The notes below the pieces were generated by a model. The model was not told the DNA's origin, did no database searches, and saw only the letters and a list, made by a program, of their open reading frames with translations. The position numbers and the translations under genes were made by a program. Source: Deltaproteobacteria bacterium (GTDB taxonomy: Bacteria; Desulfobacterota; Desulfomonilia; UBA1062). Taken from it: a DNA stretch of 64,000 nucleotides. The stretch lies in assembly GCA_029547045.1 (NCBI GenBank), contig JAKPQL010000095.1, positions 1 to 64,000 of the forward strand. Direction: 5' to 3'. The first letter of the stretch is position 1. Every line of letters starts with the position of its first letter. Shown here piece after piece: positions 16,723 to 33,370 of the stretch.

Positions 16723-17961
16723 ATGAGCAGAAATCTCGATGAGCTTTTTCTGTCCCCGAAGAAGAGCATGGACGAGGAGTCTCTGAGCGTTGCGCGGCTC
16801 GTCAGGCAGTGGGCCGACAAGGAGATCGTCTCAAAGCGCATGGAATACCGGGAGGGCTATGAGCGGCTCTTTACGGAGAAGAGGAAGAAGCTCTCCCTGG
16901 ACATCGGCATCCAGAAGCTCGCCATCCCGGCAGACCACGGGGGCTTCGGCTGGAACAGCCCCTCGAAGGCCCCCGCCCTGCTCACCCTTGCCTGCGAGAT
17001 CGGCCGCGCCGACGCCTCCATCGGCTTCCTTTCCGCAGCGACCTGGGCCCTGTCCCTGGCCGCCGATGCACACGGAAAAGGGAAGGAGCGGTTCGGTATC
17101 CTGGCCGACATCGCTGCGGATGAAACAGTGAGGACCCCGGCCCTCATCCTGACCGGCCCGGGCTTCACCGGAGTGCAGACTCCCCTTTTCCTCGGAAGGT
17201 CCATCCTGGCAAGCGCAAAGAAATCGGAGCACGGCTTCACACTGAACGGCAGAGGCCTCAGGCCCCTCGTCGCAGGCGGCATGGCAGACCTCTTCTGCGT
17301 GGTATGCGCCAGGGGTGACAATACGCCGTGCCTCGCCATTGTCCCGGGAGACGCACAGGGAGTGAAGCGGGGAGCCCCCATCCTCATGACCGGACTCAAT
17401 GCCTGCGGCAATGCCCAGATAGACCTCTACGACACGCCTGTGCCTGCGGAAGGCTTCCTGGAGGGGGAAGAAATCACTGCGGGTCTCTTCGCCTGGCTCA
17501 ACCTGCTCCTGGCGGGCGTGGGCGTGGGGGCTGCAACGAACTTCTTCGAACTGCTCGCCGACTGGAGCGATCACCGGGTCATCAAGGGAGGCTCCATCCT
17601 GAAGGAGAACCCCCTGTGCGCATCGGTCCTTGCCGATGTCGCCGAGGAGATTGCCGTGGCCAAGCTCCTTCTCTACGACCTGGCGGAGATCATGGCGACG
17701 CAGGCCGAATCGTGGCGCACAGACCTCCGCCGCACCTTCGCCTATGCCGGGATGATCGGGCAGCGGGCGGTCCAGGGGGCCCTGAAGGCCATGAACCGCG
17801 GCCTGGAGCTCATGGGTTCCGCGGGCTACGCCAAGGAGTGGCACGTGGAAAAGCACTGGAGGGATGTGAAGACCATAGGCTCCCTGCTATGCGGGGTTGG
17901 CGCCGATGCGCCGGTGAAGATGGACACGGCCAGGTTCTTCTACGACTGCTCCGAGATCTGA
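16723..17961 (+). CDS. Acyl-CoA dehydrogenase-like protein with divergent FAD and catalytic regions
   Basis: A protein of 412 residues with the overall acyl-CoA dehydrogenase layout: N-terminal helical domain, middle beta domain, and C-terminal helices ending 'LMGSAGYAKEWHVEKHWRDVK'. The middle-domain FAD motif, usually T-E-P-x-A-G-S-D, reads 'ILTGPGFTGVQ'. At the position of the classical catalytic Glu (E of Y-E-G-T) it has 'LLCGVGA', so no Glu. It may have lost or changed catalytic function, or act as the partner of the next gene's product. 'GAGGAGGATCT' precedes ATG 16723. It is first in the cluster. Confidence 0.75.
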   Translation: MSRNLDELFLSPKKSMDEESLSVARLVRQWADKEIVSKRMEYREGYERLFTEKRKKLSLDIGIQKLAIPADHGGFGWNSPSKAPALLTLACEIGRADASIGFLSAATWALSLAADAHGKGKERFGILADIAADETVRTPALILTGPGFTGVQTPLFLGRSILASAKKSEHGFTLNGRGLRPLVAGGMADLFCVVCARGDNTPCLAIVPGDAQGVKRGAPILMTGLNACGNAQIDLYDTPVPAEGFLEGEEITAGLFAWLNLLLAGVGVGAATNFFELLADWSDHRVIKGGSILKENPLCASVLADVAEEIAVAKLLLYDLAEIMATQAESWRTDLRRTFAYAGMIGQRAVQGALKAMNRGLELMGSAGYAKEWHVEKHWRDVKTIGSLLCGVGADAPVKMDTARFFYDCSEI

Positions 17962-17976
17962 GGAGGTGATGAAACC

Positions 17977-19251
17977 ATGAAGCATATCGACGAATTCTCC
18001 CGTCCGGAAGAATACATATCCCCCTTCGACCGGCACTTCAGGCGCCTCCTCAGGAAGCACCTGGAGGAGTGGGTCATGCCCGAACGCAGGAACTACGACG
18101 AGGACTGGAAAGACCACCGCCTCATCGAGCCGGCCTTCGACAGGCTCATGGCCGAGCTCGGCCTGCAGAAATCGCTCTTCCCCCTCAAACACGGGGGTTG
18201 GGGCCTGGCCGACTCCGACTATGTCTTCCGGGGAGGCTACATGCTCTGCGAGGAGCTCGGCAGGGCGGACACGGGTATGGCCGTGGCCCTGGCCGTCACC
18301 TTCTGGCCGCTCCTGGTCATCATGGTGGAACCCTACAAGAACGAGCGCCTCATCGCCGAGTTCGCGCCCATGTTCTGCACGGCGGACAAGGCCGTGTTCG
18401 CGGCCAACGCCATGACCGAGCCCCAGGGGGGTGCGGACATCGAGAACCTGGGGCTGCTCGGCGGCAGGACCATCCGCACCACGGCCAGGCTCGACGGCGA
18501 CGAGTGGGTCATCAACGGCCACAAGCTCTGGCCCACCAACTCGGGCGGCGTCTCAAAGCTTTTCGGCGTGCCCTGCACCACGAAGCCTGGGTCCAGCGAT
18601 CCCAGGGACTTCGCCTTCATCTACGTCCCGGCCGACCTTCCCGGCGTGACCCAGGGCGGCGCCTACGAGAAGGCGGGCATGGCTGCGGACAAGAACGGCG
18701 ACATCTGGTTCGAGGACGTCCGCGTCCCCTCCTGGTACCGGGCACACGGACCCGGGAGGGACGCCGAGGCCTTCTACCAGCTCATATCCTTCGGCCAGGT
18801 CATGAGCTGCGCCTTCCTCACCGGCGCCATGATGAACCTCTACGAGCGGCTCTACGAGTTCGTCTCCACCCGCACCTACAATAACGCCCCGATCAAGGAG
18901 AACGACGCCGTTGCAGGCATCATCGGCCGCATCGCGGGCGATATCGACATCTGCCGCATCCTCGGCTACGAGGCCGCCATGATCGGGGACCGGAGGAACA
19001 AGCCCTATGGCAAGCCCCTGATTTCCGAGGACGTGGTGGGCAGGATCCGCAACATCAAGGACTTCGTGTCCGACCGCGCGGTGGAAAACTTCGGCAAGGC
19101 CATGGACGTGCTGGGCCTGTTCGGAGCGGATCGCGACTGGGACATCGAGAAGCACTGGCGCGACGTCAAGATCGTACAGCTCTGGATGGGCGGCAAGCAG
19201 CTCTGCCAGATGGAAGCCGCCCGGTACTTCTTCAACTGCGAGACCCTCTGA
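17977..19251 (+). CDS. Acyl-CoA dehydrogenase family protein lacking the Y-E-G-T glutamate
   Basis: A protein of 424 residues with a normal FAD region ('AMTEPQGGADIENL', 'LWPTNSGGVSKLF') and the C-terminal 'WDIEKHWRDVKIVQLWMGG'. The classical catalytic Glu position reads Met (L-W-M-G-G instead of I-Y-E-G-T). By eye, an Asp falls near the alternative helix-G position used by isovaleryl- and long-chain-type enzymes ('FVSDRAVENFG'). It probably oxidises, or otherwise handles, a CoA thioester with electron transfer through ETF; the substrate is unknown. It follows the first acyl-CoA dehydrogenase-like gene by 15 nt with a strong 'GAGGAGGTGATG' signal. Confidence 0.85.
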   Translation: MKHIDEFSRPEEYISPFDRHFRRLLRKHLEEWVMPERRNYDEDWKDHRLIEPAFDRLMAELGLQKSLFPLKHGGWGLADSDYVFRGGYMLCEELGRADTGMAVALAVTFWPLLVIMVEPYKNERLIAEFAPMFCTADKAVFAANAMTEPQGGADIENLGLLGGRTIRTTARLDGDEWVINGHKLWPTNSGGVSKLFGVPCTTKPGSSDPRDFAFIYVPADLPGVTQGGAYEKAGMAADKNGDIWFEDVRVPSWYRAHGPGRDAEAFYQLISFGQVMSCAFLTGAMMNLYERLYEFVSTRTYNNAPIKENDAVAGIIGRIAGDIDICRILGYEAAMIGDRRNKPYGKPLISEDVVGRIRNIKDFVSDRAVENFGKAMDVLGLFGADRDWDIEKHWRDVKIVQLWMGGKQLCQMEAARYFFNCETL

Positions 19252-19260
19252 GGTGATGCC

Positions 19261-19692
19261 ATGGACGAAGCCGCGAACACGGGATTGATCGAAGGCAGGA
19301 CGAGGGTGGCCGAGGAGCTCCTTGCCAGCACCACCTTCAAGGACAGCCTGCGCATGTTCCTCAGGAACATTGACCCCGGGGCCGGGCCTGGGCTCGTCAG
19401 GACCATTCTGGGCAAGGACACCGAGGTGCCCCTGGCCGTGATGAGCTCCCTGCCGGCTATGGCGAACTGCCTCATCGGGATCGCCATGGAGCTCGTGGTG
19501 CAGGTCCGGAGCATATACCCGCCTCCCCTGCTCGCGGGTATGGTGGCATCCCTCCTGGAAGACGTGGACCGTCGGTCCCTCGCATGCCTGATCCATGAGC
19601 TCAGGGATCTCGGCAGAGACCTTGCGCCTGCCTTCAGCGCCTTTGCGAAGGCCGTGGAGGAACAGTCCCTGAAGGGAAAGGAGAGCACATGA
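19261..19692 (+). CDS. Helical protein of unknown family, copy 1 of 3
   Basis: A protein of 143 residues, nearly all predicted helix. The stretch from 'FKDSLRMFLRNIDPGAG' through 'YPPPLLAGMVASLLEDVD' is matched in order by the next gene's product and, more weakly, by the product at 21028. No catalytic motif or signal is visible, and I do not recognise the family. It lies 9 nt after the acyl-CoA dehydrogenase gene and overlaps the next copy by 4 nt, so it belongs to the same operon. A scaffold or accessory role is a guess. Confidence 0.7.
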   Translation: MDEAANTGLIEGRTRVAEELLASTTFKDSLRMFLRNIDPGAGPGLVRTILGKDTEVPLAVMSSLPAMANCLIGIAMELVVQVRSIYPPPLLAGMVASLLEDVDRRSLACLIHELRDLGRDLAPAFSAFAKAVEEQSLKGKEST

Positions 19693-20339
19693 CACAGGCA
19701 GGACCATCCGCACAGAACCGGGGGGGCATCCTGAAGGCGCTCATGCGCTCCACGCTGACAAAGGATCTCCTCCGGATCAACGTGAGCTCCATGAGCCCGG
19801 ATTCGGGAAGGAGAACGGTGAAGACCCTCCTTGGGGACGACCCGGAGGTCTTCTTCGGGATATCCGGCGGCCTTCCCGTCTTCATAAACAGCATGACAGG
19901 CGCACTCACCGAGCTGGCCACCCAGCTGAAGGACAAGTACCCGCCCGAGCTCCTGAAGTCGTTCATGGCAAGCCTTGCCCACGACATCGACAGGGAGGCC
20001 GCCAGGGAGTGCGGCAGGGCCTGGGCCGACCTTGCATCCGCCATGATCAAGGCCTCGCCTGAGTTGAGAACAATCCTTATCAGGGCCATCCTCTCCGAAG
20101 GTCCCGCGATCAAGGCCGGCGCCGTCAACGCCCTCTCCCGGTTCGTGAACGGCATTACCCGGGACGACCCTCAGGCCATGAGCAGGTTCGTCGCCGCCGT
20201 GATGGAAAAGGTCGATCATGAAGAGCTGGGCAGGGCCGGCGCTGCCCTGACCAATGCCCTCCTCGACCAGAAATGGCGCCTGGCGTCCTGGACATGGAAA
20301 TTGGTGCGGGGCAGGGTAAAAAAGAGGTTCGGCATATGA
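19689..20339 (+). CDS. Helical protein of unknown family, copy 2 of 3
   Basis: A protein of 216 residues. Its first ~110 residues parallel the preceding protein: 'LTKDLLRINVSSMSPDSG', 'VKTLLGDDPEVFFGI', 'YPPELLKSFMASLAHDID'. A further helical ~90 residues and a basic C-terminus ('WKLVRGRVKKRFGI') follow. There is no known motif. It overlaps both neighbours by 4 nt, so its output is tied to the upstream paralog and the TetR regulator. Confidence 0.7.
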   Translation: MTQAGPSAQNRGGILKALMRSTLTKDLLRINVSSMSPDSGRRTVKTLLGDDPEVFFGISGGLPVFINSMTGALTELATQLKDKYPPELLKSFMASLAHDIDREAARECGRAWADLASAMIKASPELRTILIRAILSEGPAIKAGAVNALSRFVNGITRDDPQAMSRFVAAVMEKVDHEELGRAGAALTNALLDQKWRLASWTWKLVRGRVKKRFGI

Positions 20340-21031
20340 AGGGCATGGGGGCAACTCCCGTGAACAAACTCCTGGAAAAGAAGAAGCAGCTCATCCGGGA
20401 CATGATCATGGAGGCCGCCGAAGAGCTCTTCAGCAGGCGCGGCTACCACAACACCCAGGTCATGGACATCGTCAAGGCCGTGGGCATGTCGGCGGGAACC
20501 TTCTACAACTACTTCAAGGACAAGCGCGACCTCTTCGGGCAGATCACACACCGGAACCTGGAAGAACTGCGGCTGCGCATCAGGAAACTCAGGGAGCCCG
20601 TGAACATATGGGACCACGGAGACAGGGTGGACAAGCTCAATCAGAGCTACGGCGCCTACTTCGACTACATCACCTCCCACCGCCAGCAGTTCCTCATGGT
20701 GCTCCGCGGCAGCTTCGGCGTGGACGAGGAGATGGACGTCACCATCTGGAAGCACTACAGCGACATCGCCCAGGACCTGGCCGAGGACATCCAGAGCTGG
20801 CTGGACATGGGAGTCATCGAGGGCGTGAACCCCATCACCATGGCATATGCCGTGGTGGGAATGACCATGCACCTCGGTCACAGCTTTCTCATGGAGGAGA
20901 AGTTCAGCCGCGAGGAGGCCATCGCGACGCTCACCACCATGAGCCACCTCATGTTCGAGACCCACATGACAGAGGCTGGAAGAAAGGCCCTGGAAGAGAT
21001 GCGGAAAAACGAGGCGGAGGGTTTGGAATGA
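20336..21031 (+). CDS. TetR/AcrR-family transcriptional regulator
   Basis: A protein of 231 residues. The N-terminal helix-turn-helix reads 'AAEELFSRRGYHNTQVMDIV' then 'VGMSAGTFYNYFKDKRDLF', a textbook TetR DNA-binding domain. The C-terminal part is a helical ligand domain. TetR proteins in acyl-CoA pathways often sense CoA thioesters. ATG 20336 overlaps the upstream stop, and the gene overlaps the next by 4 nt. Being inside the operon, it is a candidate autoregulator acting on the palindrome at 16536-16559. Confidence 0.93.
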   Translation: MKGMGATPVNKLLEKKKQLIRDMIMEAAEELFSRRGYHNTQVMDIVKAVGMSAGTFYNYFKDKRDLFGQITHRNLEELRLRIRKLREPVNIWDHGDRVDKLNQSYGAYFDYITSHRQQFLMVLRGSFGVDEEMDVTIWKHYSDIAQDLAEDIQSWLDMGVIEGVNPITMAYAVVGMTMHLGHSFLMEEKFSREEAIATLTTMSHLMFETHMTEAGRKALEEMRKNEAEGLE

Positions 21032-22281
21032 CGACCACTGATCATCAGGCTGCCTGCAACAAGGCCCTGGCCCGCATCATCGGAAGGAACATGCGGTCTG
21101 CGGGCGCCAGAGCCATGGTTTTAGAGATCGTGAAGGAAGCCATCAACAGCTGGGCGAAGGAGAGCACTCTCAAAAAGAGACTTGCCGCCCCAGCCCTGTG
21201 GGCCGCCTCCAGAATGGGCAGGCCGGGTACGGATGAACCCGACGGAAGCATGGCGGCCGATGTGGGGATCCTCCTGACCGCCCTGGCCAGGAAGGCGAAT
21301 GCCCAGCGCACTTCGGGGACTCGGGGCCCTGGCGCGGAGCAGGGGGAGGGCATCGACGCATTCCTCAGAAACGTCGACTTCGGGGAGATCCTGGAGATGG
21401 TCGAAGGGGCAGGCCCGCAGGTGATCGAATCCATCAGGGCCGTCAACGAGCAGCTCTGGAAGTACCCGGCCAAGGTCGGCACGCTCGCTGTCATGGCCAT
21501 TGCACTCATGAACACCGCCATACAGGCTGCCCGGGAGATCATGCGTCCCATCGAGGAGCAGTTCAGCCCTGATCTCCTGGCCGACCTCATCCTCTCCATG
21601 GTCCGGGACTTGAGCGGGTCACATGCCGCAAAGCTCGTCAATACGGTATTCGAGCTCATCCGGAGGGTCCACACCGGGAGCCTCCTGCTCGGCAAGGGCG
21701 GCAAACCACTGTTCCAGACGTATCTCACTGGCTTCCTCAAGGAATGCCTTCCGGTGATCGACCCCGAGCTGGCGAAAAAGGTACGGATCTGCCTGGCGGA
21801 AGATGCAGAGGCAGTTGCGAACGCCACGTCCGACGCCCTCGATGCCAACCCCGGCATCGTGCTGTCCGCGCTTTCCTGTCTGGGAGGAACAGCAAGCTCT
21901 CGGGCGCGGGGCCAGTCCCGTAAGCTGAAAGTCCTGGAAGACATCGACAGGTCAGGGTTCAACGACGCCGTGTCGGAAAGCGTTTCTCACCTCGACACCT
22001 ACGAGGTTGCCGGTCTCATCAACGCGGCATGTCGGGTAATCGACCGGGTCCATGACGCCAGGCCAGATATCGTGAACAACCTGGCGGGAGGGATCGTGGA
22101 CTCGGTGGATACGGAGCAGGTCCGGCGGGTCGCCCGGTGGCTCATCCCGGACCTGGTGGAAGCGCTCAGGCCGCTCGCCCCTGCAATCGTGCCCGAGCTC
22201 GTCAAAGGGCTCCAGGTGCTGGCGGCCGGTGAAGAGGGATCGGGCATCTCCGTATCCTTTTGCGCAGGGGGTGAGACATGA
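21028..22281 (+). CDS. Helical-repeat protein of unknown family, copy 3 of 3 (long form)
   Basis: A protein of 417 residues, helix-rich throughout. The segment from 'IDAFLRNVDFGEILEMV' through 'QFSPDLLADLILSMVRDLSG' parallels the modules of the proteins at 19261 and 19689. The C-terminal third holds more repeats ('YEVAGLINAACRVIDRV', 'PALVELVKGL'-like ends). There is no transmembrane segment of convincing quality, no catalytic motif and no recognised family. It sits between the TetR gene and the first HgdB-like gene, overlapping both by 4 nt. The longer open frame from 20608 overlaps the TetR gene and is not preferred. Confidence 0.7.
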   Translation: MTTTDHQAACNKALARIIGRNMRSAGARAMVLEIVKEAINSWAKESTLKKRLAAPALWAASRMGRPGTDEPDGSMAADVGILLTALARKANAQRTSGTRGPGAEQGEGIDAFLRNVDFGEILEMVEGAGPQVIESIRAVNEQLWKYPAKVGTLAVMAIALMNTAIQAAREIMRPIEEQFSPDLLADLILSMVRDLSGSHAAKLVNTVFELIRRVHTGSLLLGKGGKPLFQTYLTGFLKECLPVIDPELAKKVRICLAEDAEAVANATSDALDANPGIVLSALSCLGGTASSRARGQSRKLKVLEDIDRSGFNDAVSESVSHLDTYEVAGLINAACRVIDRVHDARPDIVNNLAGGIVDSVDTEQVRRVARWLIPDLVEALRPLAPAIVPELVKGLQVLAAGEEGSGISVSFCAGGET

Positions 22282-23474
22282 TCGGTACGATGAGAGAGGC
22301 GGCGCAGAACCTGCAGAACGCCTTTGTCCGGGAATGGAAAAAAGACGGCGGCAAGACCGTGGGCTACTCGTGCACCTTCATACCGGAAGAAATCATCCAC
22401 GCAGCGGGACTGCTGCCGTTCAGGCTGCGGGGCATCGGGACCACCTCGATGTCCATCGGCGATTCCTACTTCGGGGCGGTAAACTGCAGCCTGCCCAAGT
22501 GCATCCTGCAGCTGGCAGGCCAGGGCTCGTACACGTTCCTCGACGGCGCCATCATCACGAACGGCTGCGACTCCATGCGCAGGCTCGAGGAGTGCTGGAG
22601 AAAGGCGAGCGAGGATCACCGGGGCACCCTGCCGGAATACTACGAGTACTTCTCGGTCCCCCACAAGTCGGTGGACTACAGTGTGGAGTTCTACGAAGAA
22701 GAGCTCAGGAACATGGTTGGGACCCTGGAAAGGCATTTCAGATGCACGGTCTCGGAGCAGTCCCTGAAGAAGTCCATCTCGCTGTACAACAAAGGGAGGA
22801 CGCTCCTCCAGAAGCTCGATGAGCTGAGGTTCGGCAGGGACGTGCCCATCAGCGGCGAAGACGCCATGGCCGTTCTCATCGCTGCCCATGCAATGCCCCA
22901 GGAGCGGTTCATCGAGATGCTCGAGGGGGTCATTGAAGGGCTGGGCAAGGCACCGTCCGTGTCCGGAGGGAAGAAACGGCTCATGCTCATGGGGAGCGCC
23001 AGCGACGACATGGACTTCATCCACGTCATAGAAGAGGCAGGCGCCATAGTGGTGGCGGATACCGTGTGTTACGGGTCGCGCACCTACAGCGCCCTGGTCG
23101 ATGAGGAATCCGACCCCCTCCACGCCCTGTCCTCCCATTACCTGAAGCACAGCATCTGCCCCCGCATGCTCGGTTACTACAGGACCAGGCTCTCCTATGT
23201 GATGGACCTGATCAGAAAGGCGCGGGTGGATGGGGTGATCCTCCAGAACGTGCGGTTCTGCGACCTCCATGGATCTGAGAACGGTATCTTCGAGAGGGAC
23301 CTCGAGGCTGCGGGCATCCCCTGCATGCGGCTCGAGCGTGAGTATGGGCCCCTGACCGAGACCGGCAGGATCAGCATGCGCATCGATGCCTTCATGGAGA
23401 GGATCTCTACTCACTGCTCCTCCATCGGAGAGACAACGTCCGATGCCGCCAGGACGAGGCAGCAGACCATATGA
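22278..23474 (+). CDS. 2-hydroxyacyl-CoA dehydratase / benzoyl-CoA reductase small subunit-like (HgdB/BcrC family)
   Basis: A protein of 398 residues. C32 in 'VGYSCTFIPEEIIHAAGL', C97 in 'ITNGCDSMRRLEEC' and the Cys in 'VRFCDLHGSE' are the three conserved Cys positions that hold a [4Fe-4S] or double-cubane cluster in this family. 'IVVADTVCYGSRT', 'SICPRMLGYYRTRL' and 'GIPCMRLEREYG' are further family blocks. These proteins remove water from 2-hydroxyacyl-CoA, or reduce aromatic CoA esters, after ATP-driven electron injection. It pairs with the large subunit at 23772 and the activators at 25175 and 25957. Confidence 0.9.
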   Translation: MIGTMREAAQNLQNAFVREWKKDGGKTVGYSCTFIPEEIIHAAGLLPFRLRGIGTTSMSIGDSYFGAVNCSLPKCILQLAGQGSYTFLDGAIITNGCDSMRRLEECWRKASEDHRGTLPEYYEYFSVPHKSVDYSVEFYEEELRNMVGTLERHFRCTVSEQSLKKSISLYNKGRTLLQKLDELRFGRDVPISGEDAMAVLIAAHAMPQERFIEMLEGVIEGLGKAPSVSGGKKRLMLMGSASDDMDFIHVIEEAGAIVVADTVCYGSRTYSALVDEESDPLHALSSHYLKHSICPRMLGYYRTRLSYVMDLIRKARVDGVILQNVRFCDLHGSENGIFERDLEAAGIPCMRLEREYGPLTETGRISMRIDAFMERISTHCSSIGETTSDAARTRQQTI

Positions 23475-23518: not shown

Positions 23519-23758
23519 ATGTGTGAGGTGAACAAGGTGGAAGTGGCAATGGAGGTGCTCTGCGATATCGCGATGGATGACAGCAGGATGCTGGCGGAGC
23601 GTCAGCGGGCCATCGATGCCCTGACGCTCTTCAGGGAATCCCTGAAGACGCTGGAATACATCTCCCGCAAGACCGACCTGGATGTCCTGAAGCAGCGTGC
23701 CGGGCTCTACATCCAGCGCATGAGATCCGGCGCCCACATGAGCATGTCGGCAGTGTGA
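23519..23758 (+). CDS. Small conserved-looking protein between the two dehydratase subunits
   Basis: A protein of 79 residues, mainly helical, with 'VLCDIAMDDSRMLAERQRAI' and 'LKQRAGLYIQRMRSG'. There is no known motif. It has a good 'GGGAGGGTAGC' ribosome site and stands alone in the 298-nt gap between the small and large subunit genes, with coding-like composition. It could be an assembly or stability factor for the complex. Confidence 0.6.
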   Translation: MCEVNKVEVAMEVLCDIAMDDSRMLAERQRAIDALTLFRESLKTLEYISRKTDLDVLKQRAGLYIQRMRSGAHMSMSAV

Positions 23759-23771: not shown

Positions 23772-25178
23772 ATGAAGAGAGAGACGAGGGAGTACAACCT
23801 CGACTGGATGCTCTGGTCGAGCGTAGTTTCAGGAAGCAAGGTCATGGACGGGACGGACAAGGAGTACCAGGCTCTGCTTCGGCTCATACCCAACTTCAGG
23901 GGCATCATCGACACCATCCTGAGGCAGGGCGAGCCAGGCAGGCTTTTCATGAAGATGGGCGCGGAATACCTGGACGACATCAAGGCCGTGCATGAAAAGG
24001 GCAAGAAGCTCTGCTTCGGCACCTTCGTTGCGTCAAAGGATCTTTTCTACGCCTTTGACAACGTCGTCCCTGCATGGGCCGAAATCCTGACCGTGTTCGC
24101 CACCATGATGATGAGAAAGGGCACGGCGGAATACATGGACTACTGCTGCGAGGCAGGGTTCACCGAGACCTCGTGCTCGGCCCAGCGCGGGTCGGTGGGT
24201 GCATACCTGGCAGGTCTTGCGGAGAAGCCCGATTTTCTCGTGTGCGGCGCGCCGGGCATATGCGACACGAATGCGAACGCCATGCAGTTCATGTCCGAGT
24301 ATCTCGACATCCCGCTCTTCCAGCTCACCTTCCCTTCGAATCTCACGGGCAGGAGAATCACCGACTACCAGCGTAAAGACTACAGGGCACTGATCGCATT
24401 CGTCGAAGAGCACGCCGGATCCCGCCTGGACGAGGATCGACTGAGGTCCGTCCTCGCGGAGCACAGGCGCCAGGACGAGATCATCAACGAGATCTTCGAC
24501 CTTACACGGCTGAAGCCCTGCCCCATGCCGCCCATCTTCAACCTGTTCCTGTACGCAGGCAGGCTCCAGTCTTCAGGCAGGAAATCCCTCACGGCCCTGC
24601 TCGAATCCATGCTCCGCGTCGTGCGCGAGAATGCGAAGGCCGGAAGGGCCGGGACAGTTTCGGGCAGGGAGCGGGCGCGGCTCCTCATGTGCTACATCGA
24701 CCACTACACCACGGACGGAAGGTTCTGGCAATGGGTCGACTCCCAGGACATCAGCCTCTTGCCCACACTGATCTTCACCTTCTTCAACAGGGGCATCAAC
24801 TATGCAGAAGAACGCCAGGACCAGACCTATGAGATCGACACCTCCACCATGGATGCCATGATCGATTCTCTGGCGGACATCAACTCGCGCATGCCCATGG
24901 TCAAACAGCTCAGGGGGCCGTACGATGCCGCCGGCATGTGGCGGGAAGACCTCTTCTGCATGACCAGGCTCATGAAGCCTGACTTCGCGGTCTACCTCGG
25001 CAGCATGGGGTGCCGGAACAGCTATGGCGTGAACAAGCTGATCCAGCGCGACGCGGAACGGTTCGGGCTGCCCACCCTGCTCCTGTTTGCGGATGCCTTC
25101 GACGACCGTGTGGCATCCTGGGAATTCTGCGTGGAAAAGATCAGCGAGTTCATGCACGTGAGGGGGATCGTCTCATGA
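23772..25178 (+). CDS. 2-hydroxyacyl-CoA dehydratase / benzoyl-CoA reductase large subunit-like (HgdA/BcrB family)
   Basis: A protein of 468 residues. Three Cys blocks, 'TETSCSAQRGSVGAYLA', 'GAPGICDTNANAMQFM' and 'YLGSMGCRNSYGVNKL', match the spacing and flanks of the three Cys in the two larger paralogs at 29423 and 31010, and are the probable Fe-S ligands. The C-terminal 'RFGLPTLLLFADAFDDRVAS' is the family's terminal block. It likely forms the heterodimer with the HgdB-like protein at 22278. It overlaps the activator gene by 4 nt. Confidence 0.85.
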   Translation: MKRETREYNLDWMLWSSVVSGSKVMDGTDKEYQALLRLIPNFRGIIDTILRQGEPGRLFMKMGAEYLDDIKAVHEKGKKLCFGTFVASKDLFYAFDNVVPAWAEILTVFATMMMRKGTAEYMDYCCEAGFTETSCSAQRGSVGAYLAGLAEKPDFLVCGAPGICDTNANAMQFMSEYLDIPLFQLTFPSNLTGRRITDYQRKDYRALIAFVEEHAGSRLDEDRLRSVLAEHRRQDEIINEIFDLTRLKPCPMPPIFNLFLYAGRLQSSGRKSLTALLESMLRVVRENAKAGRAGTVSGRERARLLMCYIDHYTTDGRFWQWVDSQDISLLPTLIFTFFNRGINYAEERQDQTYEIDTSTMDAMIDSLADINSRMPMVKQLRGPYDAAGMWREDLFCMTRLMKPDFAVYLGSMGCRNSYGVNKLIQRDAERFGLPTLLLFADAFDDRVASWEFCVEKISEFMHVRGIVS

Positions 25179-25957: not shown

Positions 25958-26742
25958 TGTACGTTGCAGGATGCGATGTAGGATCTCTGAGCGCCAAGGC
26001 AGTCATCATGAAGGACGACAACATCGTGGCCTCCCACATCATGTTCGCTCGGCCCGAACCTTCAGAATCGGCCCGGGTGGTCATGGAAGAAACGCTGAGG
26101 AAGGTCGGGCTGTCCATGGAGGATATCGCTTGCTGCGTGGGTACCGGCTACGGCAGGAACGCCATCCCCTTTGCCCAGGCATGTGAATCGGAGATCGCCT
26201 GCCACGGGAAGGCCGCCCAGTGGCTGAAACCTCAGGTCCGCATGGTGATAGACATCGGGGGCCAGGACGCCAAGGCCATCAGGGTCGACGAGACGGGCAC
26301 GGTGGTCCGCTACGCCTACAACGACCGGTGCGCCTCCGGCACGGGCAGGTTCCTGGAGGTCATGGCCGGCGCCATGGGGATCGACATCGAAGCCATGGGC
26401 GACATTTCTGCTCAGGCCAGAGAGCCGGTCACGCTCTCGAACCAGTGCGTGGTCTTTGCAGAGACCGAGATCATCTCGCTCATCAATGCGGGCAGGGAAC
26501 TTCCGGACATCGTGGGGGGCCTGCACAGGGCCCTGTCCCACCGGGTGGCGTCCCTTGCCAGGAGCATCGAGCTCGAGGGCGAGATCACCATGACAGGTGG
26601 CGTGGCGAAGAACCGGGGCATGTTCACCGCCCTTGAAGAAGCCCTCGGGGTGAAGCTTGTCCGGATGGACACGGACCCCCAGATCATCGGCGCCGTCGGG
26701 GCCGCCCTCATGGCCCGGCAGACAGCTGCCGGGAACGGGTGA
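25957..26742 (+). CDS. BadF/HgdC-type ATP-dependent activator, copy 2
   Basis: A protein of 261 residues, closely related to the preceding activator: 'GCDVGSLSAKAVIMKDD', 'MVIDIGGQDAKAIRVD', and cluster Cys in 'NDRCASGTGRFLEVM' and 'SNQCVVFAETEIIS'. Both activators keep both Cys, so each could be a functional homodimer or they could combine. Tandem BcrA/BcrD-type pairs occur in class I benzoyl-CoA reductases, which favours a two-electron-type reductase over a simple dehydratase, but length alone (both ~260) fits HgdC too. It overlaps the next gene by 4 nt (GTGA). Confidence 0.93.
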   Translation: MYVAGCDVGSLSAKAVIMKDDNIVASHIMFARPEPSESARVVMEETLRKVGLSMEDIACCVGTGYGRNAIPFAQACESEIACHGKAAQWLKPQVRMVIDIGGQDAKAIRVDETGTVVRYAYNDRCASGTGRFLEVMAGAMGIDIEAMGDISAQAREPVTLSNQCVVFAETEIISLINAGRELPDIVGGLHRALSHRVASLARSIELEGEITMTGGVAKNRGMFTALEEALGVKLVRMDTDPQIIGAVGAALMARQTAAGNG

Positions 26743-27488
26743 GAGGCATCGTGGAGCTCTTTTCCGACACCATATCCGCCGTACGAGGCTTTGTCTCGGA
26801 GACATCGGGCCGAAGAGCATGGACCGCAGACAATGGCCTCTCCTGGCCCAAGGGCGGCGCGAGGAACATCGTGCTGAAGGAGGATCTGGGCCTGGAACTG
26901 GGCAGCCCGCAGATGGAATCCGTGTCCTGCCTCCTGTGGACCCACGACATCTCCGCCATCAAAGACGGGACCATAACCCTCCTGGGGCCCGACTTCCCGG
27001 AAAGCATGGGACAGAACCTCCCCTTCGGCAAGGTGGTGCTGGCAGGGGTGGAGGGCTTCACGCAAGACAATGCCTATGACCTGCACAAGGACCTGGATTT
27101 TCTCCGCTACAGCATCGACATGGAGGGCTTCATGATGCGGTCCGTATCCCAGTACCTGAGGGAGTGGTGCAGGATCAGTGCTGAAGCGATCCGACGGGGA
27201 TTTTCAGCCAGGATCCTGGGCTCGGCGCTCATCGGCCTGTTCCGTGAAAGGCCCTTCGTGAAGAGCGTCGAGGTGATCTACGTCACCTCCAGCCCCGCCG
27301 ATGTGGTGAGGCTCAGGGAGATCACCGCCCCTGCGGAGAGGATCATCGCGGCCATGAACAAGATGGCCCAGGAGATGGATTTCGAATGTTCCAGCTGTGA
27401 CTATCGGGACGTGTGCGATGAGGCAGACGGCCTGAAGGGCATGAGGGAGAGGCTTATGGACAAGTCAAGAGAGGCGCTCCATGGCTGA
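26739..27488 (+). CDS. Small CODH/acetyl-CoA synthase beta-subunit-like protein (CdhC/AcsB-related)
   Basis: A protein of 249 residues. 'LELGSPQMESVSCLLWTHD', 'ITLLGPDFPESMGQNLPFG' and 'YLREWCRISAEAIRRGF' recall the acetyl-CoA-synthase beta subunit region ahead of its A-cluster. Near the end C217, C220 and C226 form CxxC-x5-C, whereas A-cluster proteins have four ligand Cys and a longer C-terminal domain. So this is a shortened relative, not a complete ACS. Its role is unknown. It is locked between an activator (4-nt overlap) and a CooC-like ATPase (8-nt overlap), implying a Ni or Fe-S cofactor job. The start is GTG. Confidence 0.65.
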   Translation: MRGIVELFSDTISAVRGFVSETSGRRAWTADNGLSWPKGGARNIVLKEDLGLELGSPQMESVSCLLWTHDISAIKDGTITLLGPDFPESMGQNLPFGKVVLAGVEGFTQDNAYDLHKDLDFLRYSIDMEGFMMRSVSQYLREWCRISAEAIRRGFSARILGSALIGLFRERPFVKSVEVIYVTSSPADVVRLREITAPAERIIAAMNKMAQEMDFECSSCDYRDVCDEADGLKGMRERLMDKSREALHG

Positions 27489-28251
27489 GGCGAGGATCAT
27501 TGCCGTATGCGGCAAGGGCGGTGTGGGCAAGACCTCCGTCTCGGCCCTCATGGTAAGCCTGCTGGCAAGAAACGGCCACGGGAAGATCCTGGCCATCGAT
27601 GCCGACCCCGCCGTGGGTCTCGCGACGTCACTCGGTATCTCTGTCCGGAAGACCGTGGACGACATCAGGAAGGATCTCATTGCACAGATCCAGAAGGGTG
27701 ATGCCCCAGGAAACCGTCAGACCCTGGAGCTCCTTGACTACGAGATCTTCGACGCCCTTCAGGAGCAGAACGGGTACGCCCTGCTGGCCATCGGCAGGCC
27801 CGAGGACGAGGGCTGCTTCTGCAGGGTGAACAACCTGCTCAAGGACATCATAGCGGACCTGGCCCACAGGTTCGACATCGTGCTCATCGATGGCGAGGCG
27901 GGAATCGAGCAGATCAACAGGCGGGTCATGAAGACCGTGAATCACCTCGTCCTGGTATCGGACACCTCGGCCAAGGGCATCAACGTGGCCAATGCCATTG
28001 CGCTGGTGGCAGGAGAGAGGAAAGCGGTGGACTATCGGGACATCGGCCTTGTGCTCAACAGGGTGAGGAGCGAGGAGGAGGCCCGTGACATAGGCTCTAG
28101 GACAAGGCTCGAGGTCTACGGATGGATCGCAGACGACGAGGACATCAGGGACTTCGACTTCAGAGGCGCTCCCCTGACCGGGATTCCGGACTCCTCGCCT
28201 GCACTGGTCACGGTCTCGGACATCATGAGGAAGCTGCGCCTCATTCCGTGA
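27481..28251 (+). CDS. CooC-type ATPase (nickel/cofactor insertion factor-like)
   Basis: A protein of 256 residues of the MinD/NifH (SIMIBI) class. The deviant Walker A is 'GKGGVGKTSVSALM', with the switch region 'AIDADPAVGLATSLG' and 'IVLIDGEAGIEQINRR'. C112 and C114 in 'DEGCFCRVNNLLK' form the CxC metal site known from CooC, the ATPase that matures the Ni-Fe-S cluster of CO dehydrogenase. No CODH gene lies in the window. Its overlap with the ACS-beta-like gene and position among activators suggest it matures a metal centre of this cluster. Confidence 0.9.
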   Translation: MAEARIIAVCGKGGVGKTSVSALMVSLLARNGHGKILAIDADPAVGLATSLGISVRKTVDDIRKDLIAQIQKGDAPGNRQTLELLDYEIFDALQEQNGYALLAIGRPEDEGCFCRVNNLLKDIIADLAHRFDIVLIDGEAGIEQINRRVMKTVNHLVLVSDTSAKGINVANAIALVAGERKAVDYRDIGLVLNRVRSEEEARDIGSRTRLEVYGWIADDEDIRDFDFRGAPLTGIPDSSPALVTVSDIMRKLRLIP

Positions 28252-28279: not shown

Positions 28280-29419
28280 GTGAAGACAGCGGACAGGAAG
28301 GCGCTGAAGGTCTTTCAAGAGCTCCTGGAGAATCCCGTGAACCGTCTCGTGGAGCAGGCGGCCGGAGATGGGCGCATACCCCTCGGGTATTCCTGCTCCT
28401 TCGTGCCCGAGCCCCTGCTCATGGCGGACAGGCTCTTTCCCGTACGCCTCCATGCCACAGGCATCGCGGGCACGGAGATCGCCGACAACTACCTCTCCAG
28501 CCTGGTCTGCTCCTACACCCGGAGCATCCTGGAGTTCGCCTTCGACGACCGCTACGACCTCCTTCAGGGATGGGTCTTCGTGCCGTCCTGCGCCCACATG
28601 CAACGCCTGCAGGACAACCTCGAATACCTGAAGAAGCCCGGCTTCGTCCACACCATCGACGTGCCCCGGAAGGTTTCTGAGGCCACCCTCGACTGGATGG
28701 AGGAGGAGCTCCACATGCTCTCGGACAGGCTGGCCTCCCACTTCCAGGTGGACATGGGCCCGGATTCCCTCGACAAGGCCATAGCGTCGTGGAACGAGTA
28801 CGCCGAGACCGTGAAGGCGGTGGGCGAGCTCAGGAAGCGTCCCGACCCCCCGCTCACCGGCACCGAGTTCCACGCGATGCTCATGGCCTCGCTGGCCTCG
28901 CCCAAGGACCTCATCATGCCCGAGATCAGGGCCTTCAGGGACGAGGTCGAGCAGCAAGGGGACATCACCGGCCACCGTGCCCGCCTCATGGTGGTGGGCG
29001 GACACCTCCACGATCCCGACTTCATCCGCGTCATCGAGTCCCAGGGTGGGCTCGTGGTGGCGGACCGGTTCTGCACCGGCTCCATCCCGGGGCTCATGCC
29101 CGTGGAGACGAACGGCAGAGGCCCTGTACGGGCCCTGGCAGAGCACGCATTCAGGAAGACTCTCTGCCCCCGCATGATGGAGGACTTCGACCGGAGGCTC
29201 CAGTCCGTCATCGACATCGTCCGGGAATACAACGTGGACGGGGTGGTCATCGAGGTCATCAAGTTCTGCGACCTCTGGGGGGTGGACTCCATGCCCCTGG
29301 TGACGGCCCTCAGGGACAAAGGCATTCCCGTGCTCAAGCTGGAGCGGGAGTACCGCCTGGGCGGAGAGGGTCAGCTGCGCACCCGGGTGCAGGCCTTCCT
29401 CGAGAGCATGGGCAGGTGA
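28280..29419 (+). CDS. HgdB/BcrC-family subunit, copy 2
   Basis: A protein of about 379 residues. The conserved Cys lie in 'IPLGYSCSFVPEPLLMADRL', 'FVPSCAHMQRLQDN' and 'VIKFCDLWGVDSM', matching the three of the protein at 22278. 'LVVADRFCTGSIPGLMP', 'TLCPRMMEDFDRRL' and 'GEGQLRTRVQAFLESM' are family blocks. It starts the second module (small subunit, two large subunits, activator). GTG 28280 has 'AAGGAGGG' 7 nt upstream and is preferred; ATG 28259 is the alternative. Confidence 0.9.
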   Translation: MKTADRKALKVFQELLENPVNRLVEQAAGDGRIPLGYSCSFVPEPLLMADRLFPVRLHATGIAGTEIADNYLSSLVCSYTRSILEFAFDDRYDLLQGWVFVPSCAHMQRLQDNLEYLKKPGFVHTIDVPRKVSEATLDWMEEELHMLSDRLASHFQVDMGPDSLDKAIASWNEYAETVKAVGELRKRPDPPLTGTEFHAMLMASLASPKDLIMPEIRAFRDEVEQQGDITGHRARLMVVGGHLHDPDFIRVIESQGGLVVADRFCTGSIPGLMPVETNGRGPVRALAEHAFRKTLCPRMMEDFDRRLQSVIDIVREYNVDGVVIEVIKFCDLWGVDSMPLVTALRDKGIPVLKLEREYRLGGEGQLRTRVQAFLESMGR

Positions 29420-29422
29420 CGC

Positions 29423-30961
29423 ATGGGATTCAGGATCGACACTGTCCTGTCACACACCCCCATCGGGGCACGCTCCCTCGTGAACCGGGTATCCGCAGCC
29501 GCGGGATACGCATTTCGGGGCTTGAGGGAGTTGATCCTGGACCTGTCGTCGTTCTCGGCAGCCGATTTCCTCGTCTATGCGAAATACTCCCTCCTCGTCT
29601 GGGGCTGCATTGCGAGGGTGGTGATCAGACGCGGCCCCATAGGCTTCATCCATGAGCTCATCCGCTATCCGTGGATGCTCCACCTCCTCCGTGCCACGGC
29701 CCTGATGCGCCGGTTCGCCCGCGGGAGGAGCGGGCTCTATCTCGAGTCCATGTGCATGGTCGTGCACTCGGTGGCCGAGCTGCTCTCCGAGTTGCTTGAG
29801 GACCTATTCTACCACAGGGACCGTCTCATCATCACCGAGGAGATGGTGCCTCCGGACATCGCCCGGGCCATGGGACTCAAGGTCTGGATGCTGGAGGCCA
29901 TGGGCATCCTCCTGCCCATGATGACGCCCGAATTCTGCCTGAAGTACATCGACGAGGCGGAGAACGCCGGGGTCAACCCCGACGCCTGCAGTCTGCCCAA
30001 GGCCACCATGGGCATGGTCATGAAGGGCCACATGCCCGACGGGCTCGCCCTGGTGAGTTCCAACATGCCCTGCGACGCCGGCATGGCGTCGTACTCCTAC
30101 ATCCAGCGCGCCTACAAGCTGCCTACCTACCGCCTGGACGTGCCGAACAACTTCACCAACGACCGTGCGGAGCGGCTCTTTTCCGAGGACCTCAAGGGCA
30201 TGATCGCGTTCCTGGAGGAGCACACGCCCGGTCGCATGGACTGGAACGAGCTGAAGAGGATCTGCGAGGGCAGGAACCGCATGCTGGATCTGGAGCTGGA
30301 GCTCTGGGACATGATCCGGCTCAGGCCGGCGCCCCTTGCAGCCGAGGCCGTGATCCTGAGCCACATGTGGCACTTCAACCTCTTCGCGGGCCACCCGAAG
30401 TCCGTCCGGCACTATGAGCGGCTGGTGGAGATGGCAAGGAAAAACCTCGAGGAAGGAAGACCGGCAACGGAGAAGGAGCGTTTCCGGACCGTGCTCTGGA
30501 ACCCGCCCTTCCCCCACTTCGTCGACATCTTCAACAAAGCCGAGCGTCTCTTCGGCGTGACGCTCATCAACGACAGCATGACCTACAACCACCATACGCC
30601 CATCGACACCTCCTCACCCGAGACCATGTTGAAGGGACTGAGTATGGTCATCATGCAGGGCCCCATGGTCCGCCACACCCGGGGGCCCGCCGACAACTAC
30701 CTGGACGACATCTTCCGCATGGTCAGGCAGTTCGACCTGGACATGGTGTGGGTGGCCAATCACGTGGGGTGCAAGAGCGGACAGGCCATGAACGGCATCC
30801 TGAGGGAGCTGTGCCGGGAGAGGAAGATCCCCCTGCTCGTCCTGGACTACGACCTGCTGGATCCGCGCATAGCGTCCAGGGACAGCATGATGAGACAGCT
30901 GGAGTTCTTCATGGAGAACGTCATGAAGGTCGACCGCCTGGAAGCAAGGAGAACGGGATGA
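29423..30961 (+). CDS. HgdA/BcrB-family large subunit, copy 2 (long form)
   Basis: A protein of 512 residues, with an N-terminal helical extension compared with the 468-residue copy at 23772. The Cys blocks are 'NPDACSLPKATMGMVMKGH', 'SSNMPCDAGMASYSYIQ' and 'WVANHVGCKSGQAMNG'. 'INDSMTYNHHTPIDTSSPE' and 'GPMVRHTRGPADNYLDDIF' are long blocks shared almost word for word with the next gene. It should bind the second HgdB-like protein; the precise substrate is unknown. It lies 3 nt after the upstream gene. Confidence 0.85.
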   Translation: MGFRIDTVLSHTPIGARSLVNRVSAAAGYAFRGLRELILDLSSFSAADFLVYAKYSLLVWGCIARVVIRRGPIGFIHELIRYPWMLHLLRATALMRRFARGRSGLYLESMCMVVHSVAELLSELLEDLFYHRDRLIITEEMVPPDIARAMGLKVWMLEAMGILLPMMTPEFCLKYIDEAENAGVNPDACSLPKATMGMVMKGHMPDGLALVSSNMPCDAGMASYSYIQRAYKLPTYRLDVPNNFTNDRAERLFSEDLKGMIAFLEEHTPGRMDWNELKRICEGRNRMLDLELELWDMIRLRPAPLAAEAVILSHMWHFNLFAGHPKSVRHYERLVEMARKNLEEGRPATEKERFRTVLWNPPFPHFVDIFNKAERLFGVTLINDSMTYNHHTPIDTSSPETMLKGLSMVIMQGPMVRHTRGPADNYLDDIFRMVRQFDLDMVWVANHVGCKSGQAMNGILRELCRERKIPLLVLDYDLLDPRIASRDSMMRQLEFFMENVMKVDRLEARRTG

Positions 30962-31009: not shown

Positions 31010-32524
31010 ATGGAAGGTAACCTTACTGCAACAGTCAGGTCGCTTGTCGCAAAGCTGCCGGAGACCGCGATGAAGCACTGGAGGTCATCCCTGCCGGAAT
31101 ACCTCCTCAGCGCGAAGGACCTGAACTCCGCCCTCATCTACCTGAAATACTGGGCACTCAATTACTTCGTCATCGCCAGGTTCATGGCGGAGATGGATCT
31201 ACGGCTTGGCCCCGTGGGATCCCTCAGGACGCTCGTGGGCAACCCCTGGATGTTCACCCTGCTGAAGGTGAACGCCCTGATGAGACGGTATGGGCGGGGC
31301 AGGACCGGCCGCTACCTGGAGTCTGTCTGTTTGGCCCTGCACACCGTCGTCACCGGCATCATCGACATGCTGAGGCAGATGTTCTACCACCCCGAGCGCA
31401 TGGTCGTCAGCGAGGATCTGGTGCCCATTGACATTATCCATGCCATGGGTCTGGACGGCTATCTCCTGGAGGGGATGGGGATCATTCTCCCCATCGTGGA
31501 CCCCGGATCGGCCACGAAGTACATCGACACGGCGGAGAACGAGGGCATGAATCCCGATGCCTGCAGCCTGCCCAAGACCACGGTGGGCATGGTCATCAGG
31601 GGCCATATGCCCAAGGGCGTGGCCATGCTGAGCTCCAACCTGCCCTGCGACGCGGGTGCTGCCTCGTACGCCGTGATCCAGCGCATCTTCGACATCCCCA
31701 CCTACCGCCTTGACGTGCCGTACAACTTCCACGGCGAGCGGGCCGAGAACCTCTTCATGAAAGACGTGAAGGCCATGATCGCATGGCTGGAGGAGCACAC
31801 GCCGGGCCGCATGGACTGGGGCCGCTTCAGGAGGATCTGCGAGAACCGGAACCGTATCCTGGAACTGGAGCTGGAGCTGTGGGACATGATCCGGCTGAGG
31901 CCTGCCCCCCTGGCCTCGGAGGCCGTATGGCTGAGCCACCTCTGGAACGTGAATGTCACCCCGGACTACGAGAAGTCGGTCCGGCACTATGAGAAGATAG
32001 TGGCCCTGGCGAGGAAAAACCTTGAAAGCAGCACTCCTGCCACCGTGAACGAACGGTACCGGTCCATCGTGTGGAACCCCCCCTTCCTCCACTTCTCCGA
32101 CATCTTCAACTGGGCGGAGCGAACCTACGGCCTGACACTGATCAACGACAGCATGACCTACCACCACCACATCCCCATCGACACCTCCACGCCCGAGACC
32201 ATGCTGCGCGGGTGGTGCAGGACCGTCATGGAGGGACCCATGGTGCGACACACGAGGGGTCCTGCCGAGAACTACCTGGACGACATCTTCCGCATGGTGA
32301 AGCAGTTCGACCTCGACATGGTCTGGGTCGCCAACCACGTGGGCTGCAAGGGTGGCCAGGCCATGAACGGCATCCTGCGCGAGAAGTGCAGGGAGATGGG
32401 GATACCGCTGCTCATCCTCGACTACGACCTGAGCGACCCGAGGATCGTGTCCCACGACAACATGAAGCGGCAGGTGGAGCACTTCATGGAGAATGTCATG
32501 AAGGCGGAACGCCTCGACCACTAG
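31010..32524 (+). CDS. HgdA/BcrB-family large subunit, copy 3 (tandem duplicate)
   Basis: A protein of 504 residues and a clear tandem paralog of the preceding gene, with the same Cys blocks ('NPDACSLPKTTVGMV', 'SSNLPCDAGAASYAVIQ', 'WVANHVGCKGGQAMNG'), the same 'EEHTPGRMDW' and 'ELELELWDMIRLRPAPLA' stretches and the same C-terminus. The likeness is strong over the full length, while the N-terminal 130 residues diverge more. The two copies could give alternative large subunits or an A-B-C type trimer. Confidence 0.85.
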   Translation: MEGNLTATVRSLVAKLPETAMKHWRSSLPEYLLSAKDLNSALIYLKYWALNYFVIARFMAEMDLRLGPVGSLRTLVGNPWMFTLLKVNALMRRYGRGRTGRYLESVCLALHTVVTGIIDMLRQMFYHPERMVVSEDLVPIDIIHAMGLDGYLLEGMGIILPIVDPGSATKYIDTAENEGMNPDACSLPKTTVGMVIRGHMPKGVAMLSSNLPCDAGAASYAVIQRIFDIPTYRLDVPYNFHGERAENLFMKDVKAMIAWLEEHTPGRMDWGRFRRICENRNRILELELELWDMIRLRPAPLASEAVWLSHLWNVNVTPDYEKSVRHYEKIVALARKNLESSTPATVNERYRSIVWNPPFLHFSDIFNWAERTYGLTLINDSMTYHHHIPIDTSTPETMLRGWCRTVMEGPMVRHTRGPAENYLDDIFRMVKQFDLDMVWVANHVGCKGGQAMNGILREKCREMGIPLLILDYDLSDPRIVSHDNMKRQVEHFMENVMKAERLDH

Positions 32525-32563
32525 GCACGGTACAACCATTCAAGAAACGAAAGGGGCGAGAAC

Positions 32564-33370
32564 ATGGCACAGAGATACTTCGGCGGCTGCGACGTAGGGT
32601 CCACCACGGGCAAGGCGATAATCCTCGACGAGAAGGGGGCCATCCTGGCCTCGGTCATCATCCCCAGCGAGATCGATCCGGAGCTGACATCCAGGCTTGC
32701 CCTCGAGCAGGCATGCGCCCAGGTTCCCGGGCTCGGCGACTACAAGGACCTCTCCTATCTGATCGGTACCGGTTACGGCAGGAACGAGGTGCCCTTTGCC
32801 GACGAGAACATCTCGGAGATCAGCTGCCATGCCATGGGGACCTTCTCCTGCAGTCCGGACATAAAGACCATCGTGGACATCGGCGGCCAGGACGTGAAGG
32901 CCATCGCCATCGACGACAGGGGAGCGGTCCTGGAGTTCGCCATGAACGACAAGTGCGCGGCGGGCACAGGCCGGTTCTTCGAGGCCATGAGCAGGGTTTT
33001 CCGCATGGACCTCGAGGCGTTCTCCGCGCTTTCCCTGAAGGCGGGCAGGGTGATCCCCGTGACCTCCCAGTGCAGCGTCTTCGCCGAGAGCGAGGTCATC
33101 AGCCTCCTGGCGAAAAGGAACCCGCCCGAGGAGATAGCGGCAGGCATCCAGACCGCCGTGTCCAAGCGGTGCTTCACCCTGCTCAAGCGCATCGGCATGC
33201 GCCCCAGGGTGACGGTCACGGGCGGGTGCGCGAAGAACAGGGGCCTCATCAGGGCGCTCTCGAAGATGCTCGCCATGGAGGTGGCCGAACTCCCGGTGGA
33301 CCCGCAGATCATCGGTGCCCTGGGGGCCGCTGTGTATGCCCGGCAGCGCTCGAACGGGACTGGCGGTTGA
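32564..33370 (+). CDS. BadF/HgdC-type ATP-dependent activator, copy 3
   Basis: A protein of 268 residues. Motifs: 'GCDVGSTTGKAIILDEKG', 'TIVDIGGQDVKAIAIDD', and cluster Cys in 'NDKCAAGTGRFFEAM' and 'TSQCSVFAESEVISLLA'. It is more like HgdC/dehydratase activases than the tandem pair at 25175 and 25957, and is separated from them by six genes, so it probably serves the second module. It is preceded by 'AAAGGGGCGAGAAC'. It is the last gene of the plus-strand run and converges with the PAS/LuxR gene. Confidence 0.93.
   Translation: MAQRYFGGCDVGSTTGKAIILDEKGAILASVIIPSEIDPELTSRLALEQACAQVPGLGDYKDLSYLIGTGYGRNEVPFADENISEISCHAMGTFSCSPDIKTIVDIGGQDVKAIAIDDRGAVLEFAMNDKCAAGTGRFFEAMSRVFRMDLEAFSALSLKAGRVIPVTSQCSVFAESEVISLLAKRNPPEEIAAGIQTAVSKRCFTLLKRIGMRPRVTVTGGCAKNRGLIRALSKMLAMEVAELPVDPQIIGALGAAVYARQRSNGTGG

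Follow-up and report, generated by a model that had tools for sequence, protein, structure and literature searches.

The window analysed here is a 64-kb stretch of a Deltaproteobacteria bacterium assembly (G000:C89:1-64000; the assembly comprises 2.97 Mb in 148 contigs, with a completeness of 92%). It contains a gene cluster at positions 16723-33370, made up entirely of plus-strand genes in one operon-like run, in the order acad1-acad2-hel1-hel2-tetR-hel3-hgd1-79-aa gene-hgd2-act1-act2-acsl-cooC-hgd3-hgd4-hgd5-act3 (Table 1). The cluster probably encodes an uncharacterised enzyme machine. An earlier, sequence-only reading of this DNA had named five HgdA/HgdB-type subunits (hgd1 to hgd5), three activases (act1 to act3), an acetyl-CoA synthase (ACS)-like protein (acsl), a CooC-type ATPase, two acyl-CoA dehydrogenase (ACAD)-like proteins, a TetR regulator and helical proteins, and all of these are found at the positions and in the frames it gave. 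It had also counted about 17 genes, most of them overlapping by 1-8 nt. The total is 17 once a 79-aa gene missed earlier is counted, and such overlaps occur at 8 of the 15 junctions counted; the rest are spaced by 3-48 nt, except for the hgd1-hgd2 gap of 297 nt, which is the sole large gap and contains the 79-aa open reading frame (ORF). Gene content, cysteine patterns, clades, synteny, the absence of CO dehydrogenase (CODH) and full-length ACS, and a palindrome upstream of the cluster were established from the sequence and by comparison.

Table 1. Features of the 16723-33370 cluster and the region directly upstream; metal sites and regulatory roles are predictions.
Feature	Coordinates	Strand	Description
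Sigma-70-like promoter (putative)	16497..16525	+	TTGACA-17-TATCAT, 11/12 consensus
Candidate operator	16532..16547	.	TAATGA-N4-TCATTA (TAATGAAACCTCATTA), directly 3' of the promoter site
acad1	16723..17961	+	Degenerate ACAD fold; weak Pfam ACAD domains, no middle-domain match
acad2	17977..19251	+	ACAD fold; retains the flavin-site motif, with Met in place of the catalytic Glu
hel1	19261..19692	+	Helical, function unassigned; no Pfam match; hel2 paralogue by alignment
hel2	19689..20339	+	Helical; hel1 paralogue by alignment
tetR	20336..21031	+	TetR family; PF00440 (TetR_N) 1.5e-17
hel3	21028..22281	+	All-helical (AF2 model); in nearly all complete module-1 loci
hgd1	22278..23474	+	N-type (BzdN-like); C32, C70, C97, C264, C294, C328; predicted [8Fe-9S]; PF06050 6.7e-84
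Small ORF (79 aa)	23519..23758	+	Conserved in related loci; no family match
hgd2	23772..25178	+	O-type (BzdO-like), predicted catalytic; Glu104, Cys135, Cys164, Cys414; PF06050 4.6e-40
act1	25175..25957	+	BadF/HgdC-type activase; PF01869 1.8e-60, TIGR00241 3.5e-73
act2	25957..26742	+	Second activase; PF01869 2.7e-55, TIGR00241 1.1e-70
acsl	26739..27488	+	ACS middle domain and A-cluster stub C217-x2-C220-x5-C226; PF03598 (CdhC) 2.8e-11
cooC	27481..28251	+	CooC-type P-loop ATPase, CXC motif; CooC1 is best PDB match
hgd3	28280..29419	+	Second N-type subunit (module 2); six Cys, double cubane predicted; PF06050 1.8e-81
hgd4	29423..30961	+	O-type, N-terminal extension of ~140 aa; Glu158, Cys189, Cys217, Cys450; PF06050 3.4e-50
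hgd5	31010..32524	+	O-type, resembles hgd4; Glu154, Cys185, Cys213, Cys446; PF06050 1.9e-54
act3	32564..33370	+	Module-2 activase; PF01869 3.7e-52, TIGR00241 1.2e-65

The N-type subunits hgd1 and hgd3 and their orthologues were aligned with BzdN, the double-cubane cluster protein (DCCP), HadC and MbdN, for which partial stretches served as references. BzdN, from class I benzoyl-CoA reductase (BCR), carries a double cubane [8Fe-9S] cluster, BzdN and DCCP being the two proteins in which this cluster is proven; the 2-hydroxyacyl-CoA dehydratases (HADs) carry single clusters (PMC11971306). Six alignment columns are cysteine in BzdN and DCCP. All six cysteines are present in hgd1 and hgd3, and the set is kept in 29-30 of 30 hgd1 orthologues and 16 of 16 hgd3 orthologues. 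Both subunits are thus predicted to carry the double cubane. A maximum-likelihood tree unites the N-type subunits from clusters that carry acsl and/or CooC in a single clade (100/98, 25 rows), which excludes BzdN, DCCP, MbdN and HadC. The genome holds further PF06050 genes (L001, L004-L008), namely two six-cysteine pairs (G000:C69:8419-10652 and C19:16791-19030), one HadC-type pair (C6:73666-75940) and a single DCCP-like gene (C69:141616-142650).

The O-type subunits hgd2, hgd4 and hgd5 resemble BzdO, which holds a catalytic [4Fe-4S]-OH2 site formed with Cys95, Cys128, Cys380 and Glu65 (PMC11971306). The three cysteines are kept in all three subunits, together with a glutamate 31 residues before the first cysteine, with few exceptions among relatives. 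This glutamate was assigned by its spacing (30 residues between Glu65 and Cys95 in BzdO), as the BzdO reference fragment begins after residue 65. Three O-type variants in related loci (L050 8401-9729 and 4530-5885, and L093 3908-5209) have lost the glutamate, and their third cluster cysteine is replaced by histidine (ICCH, MCCH and LCCH); these are possibly an altered-ligand or non-catalytic form.

The three activases exceed the TIGR00241 cut-off, and act1 carries both cluster-ligand cysteine motifs (KCASGTGRF and STCTVWAQAE). The second activase cysteine was read directly in the three activases of the window; a regular-expression count over relatives (27 of 76) was too strict and was not used. 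With one N-type subunit, one O-type subunit and two activases, module 1 matches the class I BCR gene set. It resembles BzdNOPQ (PDB 8S02) in its six-cysteine N-type subunit, its O-type subunit with three cysteines and a glutamate, and its two BcrAD/BadF-type ATPases, but the cluster differs from BzdNOPQ in its low identity and separate clade, and adds further O-type subunits, a second module, CooC, acsl, and the ACAD-like and helical proteins. In relatives, a protein with a 2x[4Fe-4S] ferredoxin domain is inserted between hgd5 and act3, and a protein with flavodoxin and two Fer4 domains between cooC and hgd3. These inserted proteins are plausible electron donors, and their presence fits a low-potential reductase.

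The order acad1-acad2-hel1-hel2-tetR-hel3-hgd1-hgd2-act1-act2-acsl-cooC recurs across the family of the window's genome, and most of it is also found in families f32 and f62, in the SURF_33 Desulfobacteraceae metagenome-assembled genome (MAG) and in one Spirochaetota MAG. At 38 of 42 acsl loci, PF06050 subunits are encoded on the strand of acsl; an activase is present at 36, and cooC is the direct neighbour at 33. The association of the reductase subunits with the CooC/ACS-like pair, proposed from the sequence, therefore goes beyond chance and is real and conserved. Within Spirochaetota, acsl was detected in 12 of 198 sampled genomes, and no acsl was found in the search of plasmids. With activases of its own, the cluster defines a distinct clade that occurs in Desulfobacterota and Spirochaetota.

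The two modules described in the sequence-only reading do flank acsl and cooC, but they also occur separately. Module 2 (hgd3, hgd4/5 and act3) follows module 1 in a subset of loci only, and acsl-cooC-hgd3-hgd5-act3 stands alone in three loci (L101, L103 and L104) and, with a split hgd3, in a fourth (L100). Since the modules are separable, they probably represent two reductases that share accessory proteins. In L169 and L170, a CooC of the cluster clade lies beside N-type, O-type and activase genes with no acsl in the examined stretch, and in L050, L093, L097 and L102, acsl lies with N-type and O-type genes without cooC. CooC and acsl are therefore each tied independently to the reductase genes, and this makes the reductase the more likely client of CooC.

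The best solved relative of the cooC product is CooC1 of C. hydrogenoformans (PDB 3KJE; 9e-18, full-length match), with which it shares the deviant Walker A and the CXC metal motif. In CooC1, Cys112 and Cys114 of this motif bind metal at the dimer interface, with one nickel per dimer and zinc in competition, and tight nickel binding is not general to all CooCs (PMC6006190). The CXC pair is kept in 59 of 59 CooC rows. Unlike CooC1, the cluster CooCs have PF06050 reductases as neighbours, not CODH (cooS) or acs, and form a 43-row clade (99/96) apart from CODH- and ACS-linked CooCs. The window's genome has only one CooC (the next match scores 23 bits), and a genome-wide search found no CODH. CODH is missing from 20 of 24 family genomes (the window's included) and present in four, and among the 18 family genomes with acsl it exceeds the cut-off in two only. 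It is also absent from all four f32 genomes searched; several acsl carriers outside these two families do have it. The tie between CooC and a reductase cluster in genomes without CODH suggests that the clients of CooC-type chaperones probably extend beyond CODH/ACS.

The acsl product matches ACS/CdhC over the middle domain only, in sequence profiles as in fold: its AlphaFold model (pLDDT 86) has ACS structures as all of its top 23 PDB matches in a Foldseek search. Profile alignment (hhalign) against full-length ACS of related genomes places C217, C220 and C226 on the A-cluster CxxC...HVC, and these residues are invariant in 22 homologues; the C-terminal cysteine stub is modelled at low confidence. 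The protein ends after the third A-cluster cysteine, and so lacks the fourth, the later nickel-binding CGC motif and the N-terminal domain. The complete A-cluster ligand set is thus missing, and what had been called an ACS-beta-like protein is related to ACS without being a full ACS beta subunit. Full-length ACS was not found in the window's genome. A complete ACS or a residual CODH/ACS system was ruled out by the absence of CODH from the genome and of the A-cluster's nickel part from acsl. The earlier description of the cluster as merged with CODH/ACS maturation genes is not fully accurate, since the genome has no CODH, the CooCs form a clade of their own and acsl is a truncated ACS, not a maturation factor. 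An interaction between CoA and the middle domain of ACS has been observed (PMC12289521), so CoA handling by acsl is a reasonable inference.

The ACAD-fold proteins do not look like ordinary acyl-CoA dehydrogenases, as neither has the catalytic glutamate (the Glu376-type residue of MCAD). In acad1, both this glutamate and the FAD-loop motif are missing, in the window and in orthologues alike; acad2 has methionine at the canonical glutamate position, the only one examined. Some acsl loci lie near CoA-ester genes (thiolase, CoA transferase, acyl-CoA ligase and carboxylase). Together, the ACAD-fold proteins without the canonical glutamate and these neighbours point to a CoA thioester substrate; BzdN and BzdO act on CoA esters (PMC11971306).

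These observations lead us to a reading that we consider rather likely, namely that two reductases of the class I BCR or DCCP kind, driven by ATP and of very low potential, are encoded here and act on a CoA thioester, with shared accessory proteins and a CooC chaperone. Its cluster types, electron path and reductase chemistry are drawn from relatives. An activase dimer (act1/act2 for module 1, act3 for module 2) would hydrolyse ATP to energise electrons from ferredoxin. The N-type subunit (hgd1 or hgd3) would receive them at its double cubane and hand them on to the O-type subunit (hgd2, or hgd4/hgd5), whose [4Fe-4S]-OH2-type site, close to a glutamate, would reduce the substrate. CooC would be a dedicated metallochaperone-type ATPase serving the reductase machinery, and acsl an ACS-derived, CoA-handling subunit with a three-cysteine metal or cluster site; what acsl does, which client CooC serves, which metal is involved and which substrate is reduced are guesses. 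The cluster would then link CooC and an ACS relic to low-potential chemistry in genomes that lack CODH. The parts are known individually; no description of their combination, or of the clade that it defines, was found in the papers searched. Nothing relevant on PF06050/activase genes together with CooC was found in the openly searchable literature, and a prior description in subscription papers, many of which lay outside its scope, is possible. Metal content, CooC dependence and substrate are open to direct test.

Several points weigh against this reading. The overall identity of the cluster proteins to BzdN and DCCP is low, and although the NCBIfam double_cubane model (DCCP, NF040772) is the best model for hgd1 and hgd3, its scores (177 and 156 bits) fall under the cut-off of 350. 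Six conserved cysteines predict a double cubane and do not prove it. In the O-type subunits, His131 of BzdO is not kept, the residue at +3 from the Cys128 equivalent being asparagine in hgd2 and glycine in hgd4 and hgd5. No ferredoxin gene was recognised within the window's own cluster. An adjacent CooC is missing at nine acsl loci, and three acsl loci (L051, L094 and L095) lack PF06050 subunits altogether, with just an ACAD gene beside acsl. We know of no CooC requirement in the BzdNO-type family. BzdNO has been produced in E. coli (PMC11971306).

One alternative overlaps with the two-reductase reading: CooC would insert nickel into acsl or the reductase, giving a hetero-metal low-potential site. 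The conserved CXC pair, the single nickel bound per dimer by the CODH-linked CooC1 (PMC6006190), the retained CxxC-x5-C of acsl, and a genome with neither CODH nor full-length ACS as a nickel recipient would all fit. However, acsl lacks the fourth A-cluster cysteine and the CGC motif that holds the nickels in ACS, no nickel-binding site is recognisable by sequence in hgd1 to hgd5, not every CooC binds nickel tightly, and CooC1 also takes zinc at the same site (PMC6006190). We treat nickel as an open possibility and not as a result, and consider this variant rather unlikely. The same tentative weight applies to the cluster as a hetero-metal branch of the BCR/double-cubane enzymes, in which CooC-delivered nickel (or another metal), an ACS-derived subunit and an ATP-driven double cubane might reduce CoA esters in a way that no known enzyme does. 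The extra metal centre suggested in the sequence-only reading is possible.

The subunits could instead be ordinary, duplicated HADs that CooC and the ACS-like gene merely happen to accompany. HADs share the PF06050 family and also use HgdC-type activases, and the HadC and HadB NCBIfam models match, below cut-off; the resemblance to 2-hydroxyisocaproyl-CoA dehydratase HadBC (PDB 3O3M) lies in the PF06050 fold and the activase. However, HadC lacks two of the six cysteines (P and A there, giving PCCACC) and MbdN lacks three, whereas hgd1 and hgd3 read CCCCCC. The same genome provides a control: its contig C6 pair reads PCCACC and groups with HadC (94/87), and CCCCCC is found in the C69 and C19 pairs and in the lone gene C69:141616, so the pattern separates the types within one genome. 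In addition, acsl and CooC keep their neighbouring positions in many genomes. An ordinary HAD was rejected on the cysteine pattern together with the control from the same genome, and we regard this explanation as improbable. Where the earlier proposal was of a low-potential reductase or dehydratase, the dehydratase is disfavoured and the reductase well supported, by the six-cysteine N-type and three-cysteine O-type subunits, the activases and the ferredoxin-type insertions in relatives.

A DCCP system, in which a small molecule would be reduced at the double cubane itself and not at an O-type site, had been put forward as a strong alternative, and we find it quite unlikely. DCCP with its reductase (PDB 6ENO, C. 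hydrogenoformans) shares the activase-driven architecture and all six cysteines with hgd1 and hgd3, and double_cubane is the best NCBIfam model for both. However, DCCP is described as homodimeric (PMC11971306) and has no O-type partner, whereas complete clusters have a distinct three-cysteine O-type subunit and are predicted to form N/O heteromers. The genome has one DCCP-like gene, C69:141616, which the tree places with DCCP (100/100) and not in the cluster clade; this separate gene ruled out a plain DCCP for the cluster.

A class I BCR proper, supporting growth on aromatic acids through the benzoyl-CoA pathway, would account for the gene set of N, O and two activases and for the BzdN/BcrC-type NCBIfam matches, but is very unlikely, as the curated cut-offs are missed (bzdN 137 against 454 bits, bcrC 127 against 421 bits), BzdN lies outside the cluster clade, His131 is not kept, and none of the 24 genomes of the family has the ring hydrolase (6-oxocyclohex-1-ene-1-carbonyl-CoA hydrolase) above its cut-off of 464 bits (top score 98.5), which ruled out the canonical pathway. 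A thn-type tetrahydronaphthoyl-CoA reductase operon was also considered and set aside; the gene table of PMC12016498, by which alone it was compared, contains no CooC- or ACS-type gene.

Upstream of acad1, the putative promoter is the only strong sigma-70 match in a consensus scan of 16200-33600. The adjacent TAATGA-N4-TCATTA overlaps a 28-nt palindrome (16534-16561) and matches once in the window, compared with none in 100 shuffles. Across 172 loci, it occurs in seven further family genomes, once each and upstream of the cluster, and nowhere else. This element is probably the operator of the TetR protein encoded inside the operon, which would make TetR probably an autoregulator. In six family genomes (L145, L149, L159, L160, L162 and L164), acad1 is preceded by a second TetR gene and by an SBP_bac_3-type ABC transporter.

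The three helical proteins, noted earlier as unknowns, are mutual paralogues (hel1 and hel2 by alignment, hel3 by eye), and a fold search with the hel3 model (pLDDT 63) gave no match. A family search with the 79-aa protein gave none either, and its homologues occupy the same position at 14 distinct related loci with 58-89% identity (one match partial). In L051, L094 and L095, acsl lies beside an acad2-like ACAD that retains the glutamate, again without CooC, and the L094 neighbourhood includes thiolase, SCP2, CoA-transferase III and DctP genes.

Just 5' of the cluster, an HpaB-family gene (14480-15937, plus strand; PF11794/PF03241, under the NCBIfam HpaB cut-offs) resembles 4-hydroxybutyryl-CoA dehydratase by eye, and was kept out of the cluster because it is not conserved beside it in relatives. 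Further upstream, a radical SAM protein (PF04055) is encoded on the minus strand (12857-14176), and on the other side a PAS/LuxR-like regulator, assigned by eye (33425-34807, minus strand), is convergent with act3.

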